From Acidimicrobiia bacterium (GTDB lineage Bacteria; Actinomycetota; Acidimicrobiia; IMCC26256; JAMXLJ01), in the NCBI GenBank assembly GCA_035651955.1, contig DASRES010000047.1, positions 1 to 47,049 of the forward strand: a stretch of DNA of 47,049 nt. Reading direction: 5' to 3'. The position numbers and the translations under genes were made by a program. The notes beneath the pieces are model-generated. The model searched no databases. It had not been told where the DNA came from and saw only the letters and a list, made by a program, of their open reading frames with translations. Positions 10,033 through 11,597 of this stretch are shown in pieces (position 1 is the stretch's first letter; each line of letters starts with the position of its first letter).

Positions 10033-10038
10033 GGTCCC

Positions 10039-10044
10039 AGGGTA
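10039..10044 (-). promoter_or_regulatory. Leaderless-type -10 box for the DUF983 gene
   Basis: On the minus strand TACCCT (10044 to 10039) is followed by 6 nt and GTG 10032. The box lies in the 21-nt gap after the upstream nuclease gene. Confidence 0.45.
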
Positions 10045-10053
10045 CCGGTCGGG

Positions 10054-10842
10054 TCAGACGTTCACGCCGGGCGGAACCGGCCATGCGGCGACCGCGGGCG
10101 CGGCGCTGTCGCGGCAGATCGAGCGGTACCGGCACCACCCGCACGTGGTCGGGTCCGCCACGCCCGCGTACTCCTGCTCCTGCCACATCTCGCCGACCAC
10201 CGCGCGCATCTCCTCCTCGATGTCGGCGAGCTCGTCGTCGTCGGGCTCGAAGGGCACCGGGTCGTCGACGACCTCCGGCGAGAGGAACTCGTAGCGCACG
10301 CGCACGCGCAGTCCCTTGCGGGCCGCGCGCGGCGCGAGCAGCCAGGCCTGCAGGCGCGCCCGCGGGTCGTCCCGGAGGTGCTCGGACGTCGGCGGCGCGC
10401 CCGTCTTGTAGTCGCGCGCATCGGCGATCCCGTCGTGGATCCACACGGCGTCGATGCGCCCCGTCGCCATGAACATCGGTGCCGGCAGGCGATGGAACCG
10501 GGCGAGGTCGAGCTCGTGTGCCGACCACACCGCGCCCTCCGGGCAGCGACGTGCATGACGCTCGACGAACGCGTGCATGGGCCCGTCACCGTCGAAGCCG
10601 TGCGCGGCGAGGACGTCCACCACATGGGCGCCGTCACGGCAGGAGCCCGTTCCGGTCGTGTGCACCTGCCGGAGCATCGCGTGCACCGCGACGCCGAGGT
10701 CGGGCGACGGGCCCTCGTCGCTCGCCGGGATGCCGAGCATGCGCGCGATCCGGTACTCGCGGCGACACCGCCGCCACTGGACGAGCGACGTCGCGTTGAG
10801 CGCGACGATCGCGGCCGGGCGGACGTCGTCGCGCGCCGTCAC
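10054..10842 (-). CDS. PD-(D/E)XK nuclease with Cas4/AddB-type Fe-S cysteines
   Basis: 262 residues from GTG 10842, whose GTGA overlaps the stop of the upstream gene. The active site is complete: GVAVH (G50/H54), GRID (D131), and the D-x-K pair in RDYKTG (D144, K146), matching the RecB-type PDDEXK_1 nuclease domain. Four cysteines, C26, C234, C237 and C243 (C…CxxCx5C), have the spacing of the 4Fe-4S cluster in Cas4, AddB and Dna2-type nucleases. No helicase, cas1 or cas2 lies nearby, so it is not a CRISPR gene. A DNA-processing or repair role is inferred, probably as a partner of the adjacent related protein. Confidence 0.85.
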   Translation of the reverse strand: MTARDDVRPAAIVALNATSLVQWRRCRREYRIARMLGIPASDEGPSPDLGVAVHAMLRQVHTTGTGSCRDGAHVVDVLAAHGFDGDGPMHAFVERHARRCPEGAVWSAHELDLARFHRLPAPMFMATGRIDAVWIHDGIADARDYKTGAPPTSEHLRDDPRARLQAWLLAPRAARKGLRVRVRYEFLSPEVVDDPVPFEPDDDELADIEEEMRAVVGEMWQEQEYAGVADPTTCGWCRYRSICRDSAAPAVAAWPVPPGVNV

Positions 10843-11597
10843 GTGTGTGCCTTGCACCCGGGGACGAAGCGGCAGGACGCGCAGTCGGAACCCGGGGCCG
10901 GATCGGGCTGCGCGATCCGCTCGCGGATGAGCGCGACGCGCGCTGCGACCCAGTCGTCCAGGTCCGCCCGCCGCGACGCGACGTCGACCACGTCCTCGCG
11001 GCGCGCGCCCTGCACGACGTCCGCGACTGACACGAGCAACGGGCGGTCGCCGGCCCAGCGCGCGAGACGGAGGAGCACGAACCGCACGTCGGCGTCGTCG
11101 ACCAGCACCGCGGGAACGCCGGAGCCCAGTCGGAGCAGACGCACCTCGGCGCGCCCGTCGCCGTCCTCGACCACCAGCCCGCACCGGCCGACGAGACGCA
11201 CACCGAGGCCGTCCAGCGTCGTGGACCACTCCTCGTCGCCGGGGAGGTCCGCGGCGCGCACCGGGCGATCGCCGTAGAGGGCGACGTACCAGGCGGCCGC
11301 GTGCTCGTACAGCCGGCGCTCCTCGTCCGTCAGGGCGTCGGCCCGGAACGCGCCGATCGACGGCGACGCCACGTCGACGTGACACAGCCGGGCGTCCTCG
11401 AGGAGGCGCTGCTCCACGCGGAACCGACCCGACCCGAGGTTCATCCCGCGGTGGTCGCCGTGCTCGTGCGCCAGCCGCCGCGGGCACATCGTTCCGGCGC
11501 GGCGGAGGTGGCTCACCGTGACCTTCGGCGGCTGGTCGGCGTCGAGGTCCGCGCCGCCACTGCGTGTGCTCGGTCGCACGGGTTCGGCCTTCACCAC
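10839..11597 (-). CDS. PD-(D/E)XK-like protein with lost catalytic residues
   Basis: 252 residues from GTG 11597 (a second GTG follows directly). It has the same four-cysteine frame as the downstream nuclease: CPRR at C38 and CASCRFVPGC at C239/C242/C248. The region equivalent to GRID…DYKTG reads VGRCGLVV…AEVRLLRLG, so the catalytic aspartate and the lysine are missing, and the GxxxH motif is not evident. It is probably a catalytically inactive but Fe-S-binding paralog that forms a heteromer with the active nuclease, to which it is coupled by a GTGA overlap. The reading is homology by pattern, not proven. Confidence 0.6.
   Translation of the reverse strand: MVKAEPVRPSTRSGGADLDADQPPKVTVSHLRRAGTMCPRRLAHEHGDHRGMNLGSGRFRVEQRLLEDARLCHVDVASPSIGAFRADALTDEERRLYEHAAAWYVALYGDRPVRAADLPGDEEWSTTLDGLGVRLVGRCGLVVEDGDGRAEVRLLRLGSGVPAVLVDDADVRFVLLRLARWAGDRPLLVSVADVVQGARREDVVDVASRRADLDDWVAARVALIRERIAQPDPAPGSDCASCRFVPGCKAHT

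Follow-up and report, generated by a model that had tools for sequence, protein, structure and literature searches.

Two neighbouring genes of an Acidimicrobiia bacterium, referred to here as A and B, probably encode a dedicated nuclease heterodimer, in which protein B would cut DNA and protein A, a degenerate nuclease fold, would hold, position or limit it, without ATP and probably in housekeeping repair. The genes lie in a window of 47,049 nucleotides, the whole stretch of DNA that was analysed (contig DASRES010000047.1), whose source assembly comprises 4.1 Mb and is 96% complete. An earlier note on this DNA had described A and B as genes that overlap by GTGA and whose products share a C...CxxCx5C frame, with G-x3-H, D131, D144 and K146 in B and, in A, GRCG at the place of an expected GRID and no D-x-K. 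The overlap was located in the window and all of these residues were confirmed in the two translations (Table 1); the GRCG claim is refined in one respect: the residue of A that aligns with D131 of B is G140, a position at which 16 of the 38 homologues of A have Asp. The start codon of A is uncertain, and the N-terminal ~20 residues are predicted to be disordered. At window positions 11564-11597, the longest open reading frame of A runs head-to-head into that of the divergent DUF4012 gene, so that at least one of the two annotated starts is too early.

Table 1. Genes and motifs of the A-B pair in the window; counts refer to homologues of the respective protein.
Feature	Position	Strand	Remarks
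Protein A gene	10839-11597	(-)	252 aa; putative Fe-S pseudonuclease subunit, degenerate PD-(D/E)XK site
A C38	11484-11486	(-)	First putative Fe-S cysteine; 38/38
A GRCG 137-140	11178-11189	(-)	At the place of B GRID (D131); Asp in 16/38
A EVRLLR 151-156	11130-11147	(-)	At the place of B DARDYK; retains the structural E-x-R but not the catalytic D-x-K
A C239-x2-C242-x5-C248	10854-10883	(-)	Putative Fe-S cysteines; 38/38
GTGA overlap	10839-10842	(-)	Four bases common to A stop and B start
Protein B gene	10054-10842	(-)	262 aa; putative Fe-S RecB-type PD-(D/E)XK nuclease subunit, intact active site
B C26	10765-10767	(-)	First putative Fe-S cysteine; 41/41
B G50-x3-H54	10681-10695	(-)	Motif I; 41/41
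B H61 and C68	10639-10662	(-)	Predicted second metal site, first half; H61 41/41, C68 38/41
B H96-x3-C100	10543-10557	(-)	Predicted second metal site, second half; 41/41
B GRID 128-131	10450-10461	(-)	Motif II; D131 41/41
B RDYK 143-146	10405-10416	(-)	Motif III; 41/41
B C234-x2-C237-x5-C243	10114-10143	(-)	Putative Fe-S cysteines; 41/41

Protein B retains the catalytic motifs of RecB-type nucleases

B matches PF12705 with 74.5 bits (E 1.7e-20), which is above the Pfam gathering cut-off of 22 bits. C26, G50, H54, D131, R143, D144, Y145, K146, G148, C234, C237 and C243 are invariant in all 41 homologues, and Q165 of the RecB-type QhxxY motif is present in 37 of the 41, with mostly Leu or Ala at position 169. 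B is classed as an intact Fe-S RecB/Cas4-type PD-(D/E)XK nuclease, whose activity we infer from its intact catalytic motifs. In a model of a naturally fused A-B protein, which is described below, the best fold matches of the B domain are the nuclease domain of mycobacterial AdnA (Z 17.9 over 224 residues; 7sjr, 6ppr) and ACE1 (Z 17.7; 9iab, 9iac), followed by AddB (Z 14.3) and Cas4 (Z about 11). In addition to the active site, H61, C68, H96 and C100 are predicted to meet as one second metal site, which has no counterpart in A. Three B proteins of f68, a distant lineage of the phylum, carry a His close to the position of C68 instead, a ligand swap of the kind that a metal site would show.

Protein A has a predicted nuclease fold and a decayed active site

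In profile searches, which the earlier note had proposed, B is assigned to PF12705 and scores 16.4 bits with the cas4 model TIGR00372, below the cut-off of 65, and A stays below the PF12705 cut-off with 12.8 bits. A is also without a match in NCBIfam, PADLOC or PHROGs, and a PDB sequence search with two A queries (A1, A2) returned nothing significant. The AlphaFold model of A (36 homologues in the alignment; pLDDT 92.5, pTM 0.87), compared with known structures by Foldseek and VIA-align, matches ACE1 at Z 14.4, the nuclease domain of AdnA at Z 14.2, AddB at Z 9.9, Cas4 at Z 9.6 and, at Z 5.8, 1w36_C, which is RecC of RecBCD and has an inactive nuclease-like domain. The leading matches are PD-(D/E)XK proteins, and PD-(D/E)XK is the fold predicted for A, as the earlier note had supposed. 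When the family profiles of A and B are aligned with hhalign (81.6%, E 1.1e-5), they match over 216 columns, end to end and with the cysteine frame in register, which gives moderate support to a sequence relationship between the two. The invariance of the cysteines, this alignment and the predicted fold of A show that the observed pattern is not due to chance, and a bound Fe-S cluster is predicted from the invariant cysteines in both proteins.

C38, E92, Y104, R153, C239, C242 and C248 are invariant in all 38 A homologues, and E151 is found in 35 of them. Among the 38 proteins, the A-family columns at the positions of D144 and K146 of B favour neither Asp nor Lys, and Asp at motif II is confined to the 16 proteins mentioned above; together with the invariant cysteines, these columns indicate that the active site is decayed throughout the A family and that the Fe-S staple is not. 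A search for an alternative conserved acid/lysine site in A found none: its only invariant residues other than cysteine are E92, Y104 and R153. It is very unlikely that A is itself active via an unorthodox site, for example E92 together with E151, which would give the pair two active centres. Active sites with moved residues do exist in the PD-(D/E)XK superfamily (PMC1189080), and the invariance of E92 and R153 and the near-invariance of E151 would suit such a site; beyond these residues, however, A has neither a conserved Lys nor a second Asp/Glu pair. Furthermore, E151-x-R153 aligns with D/E141-x-R143 of B, whose R143 is invariant, and looks structural because this counterpart sits beside the intact catalytic D144-Y-K146.

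In close pairs, dN/dS is 0.03-0.30 for B and mostly 0.09-0.26 for A; an exception is the pair L022-L024, in which A has a dN/dS of 0.68 at a dS of only 0.11. These values indicate that A is under purifying selection, and mostly low dN/dS together with the invariant columns rules out that A is a decaying pseudogene. The idea that A is a recent tandem copy of B is unsupported: most B proteins receive from the A profile a score that does not exceed the one given to an unrelated solo nuclease in the same genome, and its best B score is obtained with a B protein of lineage f68.

A and B are adjacent, in some genomes fused, and predicted to pack together

The earlier note had suggested looking for the pair in other genomes, and it is conserved there. 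B lies directly downstream of A on the same strand in all 30 loci first fetched, which comprise the genome of the window and 29 relatives. Matches to A and to B are each present in 41 of 61 searched genomes, in nearly the same set; two genomes with A only (G053, G056) hold fragments of A, probably at contig ends to judge by their coordinates, and two with B only (G013, G031) hold weak partial matches. Among 23 unfused loci, 12 have a start codon so placed that the four-base overlap of stop and start is possible. Ten genomes carry A and B as a single open frame with no stop in between (L016, L022-L029, L059). We do not claim multiple independent fusions: the tree of B needs one or two changes, and a single origin is possible. 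In an eleventh fused A-B (L038, G008:C1), there is an apparent frameshift inside A, which reflects either a sequencing error or decay.

The nearest named relatives are metagenome assemblies of Acidimicrobiia and Actinomycetota. In a scan of genome contigs with the B profile, Actinobacteria bacterium IMCC26256, whose genome is complete, also proved to have the pair, in unfused form. The same gene order is found in lineage f68 (L093-L095) and in f89, another family of the same class (L134). Elsewhere in the sampled genomes, the pair is absent at E 1e-8, and only partial matches to other PD-(D/E)XK proteins were obtained; among the best 50 matches listed for BFVD, there are only single-domain phage nucleases and no two-domain match. 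Of the 58 genomes sampled in the order, 17 have no match to A, and several of these are incomplete or reduced; thus, the pair is not essential.

A model of the natural fusion L016 (507 residues), for which fused sequences were aligned together with sequences of A alone and of B alone, has a pLDDT of 93.3 and a pTM of 0.90. Two equal domains without a defined position would be expected to reach a pTM of about one half, so the global pTM of this one natural fusion predicts a definite packing of A against B. As to the inactive/active nuclease heterodimer of the earlier note, the predicted folds, the residues, the pairing and the fusion speak for it; a stable complex in cells and the activity of B are what we infer, and the same applies to DNA binding by A and to the substrate.

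Inactive nuclease-like partners beside active ones are well known from RecBCD (RecB-RecC) and from eukaryotic repair (Mus81-Eme1, XPF-ERCC1). By analogy with RecC, Eme1 and ERCC1, A may be the scaffold and DNA-holding half, which positions or limits the substrate of B. The two proteins are very likely translated together; A would dock on B in a defined packing, forming a single-chain pseudo-dimer where the genes are fused, and both proteins would be stapled by Fe-S clusters. B, with its intact motifs, would be the catalytic subunit and perform metal-dependent cutting, and the substrate would probably be single-stranded ends, flaps or branched DNA. It is also conceivable, if unlikely, that A serves mainly to fold or stabilise B, in the manner of a chaperone, or to regulate it, and is not a DNA-holding half. 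Co-translation and fusion would suit any obligate partner, and few residues of A outside the Fe-S set are invariant; however, A keeps the whole nuclease fold and the Fe-S staple, and known inactive nuclease-fold partners generally bind DNA.

The pair sits in a housekeeping neighbourhood without a linked motor

Across the order, prfA, prmC, DUF983 and DUF4012 genes are common neighbours of the pair, and they do not make up a defence island. In many relatives, a thiolase-like gene (TLP1_add_C) lies between B and DUF983, for instance at L065 8738-10255 and L079 8864-10408. DUF983 directly follows B in the window (10033-10053) and in L061, which belongs to the same genus. In lineage f68, one neighbour of the pair encodes a P-type ATPase and another a cell-wall protein. 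No helicase gene was seen beside the pair in the neighbourhoods examined. The additional gene that separates B from DUF983 in most relatives was considered as a missing helicase partner and discarded, since it is thiolase-like in the four loci in which it was read. The absence of a linked motor and the housekeeping setting suggest ATP-independent processing of ends, flaps or branches in repair.

As the earlier note had stated, the pair stands outside any CRISPR or AddAB context. The genome, 96% complete, has no match to Cas1, to PF01930 (Cas4) or to Piwi. Another contig carries an AddAB-like locus (L128, G000:C61:6000-20000), which encodes a UvrD-nuclease resembling AddA together with a protein resembling AddB. 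A solo PF12705 nuclease, which also matches DUF2800, lies elsewhere in the same genome (L129, G000:C46).

An anti-phage defence module seems improbable. B has weak matches to the PADLOC defence nucleases DruK (E 1.4e-5) and Cas4 (E 1.2e-4), and the distribution in the order is patchy, both of which would speak for such a module. However, the neighbourhood of prfA, prmC and DUF983 is stable across families, the presence of the pair in most families of the order looks vertical, A has no PADLOC match, and no effector, ATPase or methylase gene is linked. The A-B heterodimer would more probably serve housekeeping repair than CRISPR, an Argonaute system or defence against phages.

Relation to known nuclease systems

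AdnA, the best fold match of B, also contains an SF1 motor, whereas A and B consist of nuclease-fold domains only and adjoin no helicase gene. ACE1, an Argonaute-associated Cas4 family protein, has a stand-alone Cas4-like fold of a size similar to that of A and B; however, the title of its structure ties it to Argonaute, whereas the pair comprises two proteins, one without catalytic residues. An ACE1-Argonaute module was rejected, despite the fold match, for lack of a Piwi match in the genome. RecC carries a degenerate PD-(D/E)XK domain beside an active one in RecBCD, as A stands beside B, but is large and belongs to a motor complex, whereas A is free-standing, 252 aa long and keeps all four Fe-S cysteines.

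Cas4 (PF01930, TIGR00372) and the Cas4-like nucleases of pfam12705 share with B the RecB motifs and the C...CxxCx5C module. A Cas4 or solo-Cas4 identity was nevertheless rejected: B is below the cas4 cut-off, and the genome is devoid of Cas1 and Cas4. A survey of Cas4-like proteins places pfam12705 proteins outside CRISPR (PMC5704561). It rates all Cas4 proteins as active, whereas A lacks the site, and its section 8 describes helicase-linked pfam12705 proteins and no pseudonuclease pair (PMC5704561). The survey also cites the TTV1 nucleocapsid protein as an inactivated Cas4-like protein (PMC5704561), which is, however, a capsid component and not an Fe-S RecB-type nuclease pair. Active and inactivated PD-(D/E)XK domains also occur in PAB2104/COG1395 (PMC1189080), but this archaeal HTH protein is kin to Holliday-junction resolvases and again not an Fe-S RecB-type pair.

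Significance

In the literature searched, no earlier description of a free-standing Fe-S RecB-type inactive/active pair was found. Degenerate beside active PD-(D/E)XK domains are already known; the evidence points to the A-B pair as an undescribed two-part enzyme. We give even chances to a more specific proposal, according to which a pseudonuclease, still with its Fe-S cluster, serves to hold or gate the substrate of an active RecB-type subunit with an extra His/Cys metal site, and the pair works as a helicase-free enzyme for ends, flaps or branches beside AddAB. Split and naturally fused versions exist, including the unfused one in the complete genome of IMCC26256, which makes the question directly testable. 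If the proposal is true, Actinomycetota would possess, alongside AddAB, an enzyme that processes ends or flaps without a helicase, and the pair would offer a natural case for the role of an Fe-S cluster in a nuclease fold that does not cut.
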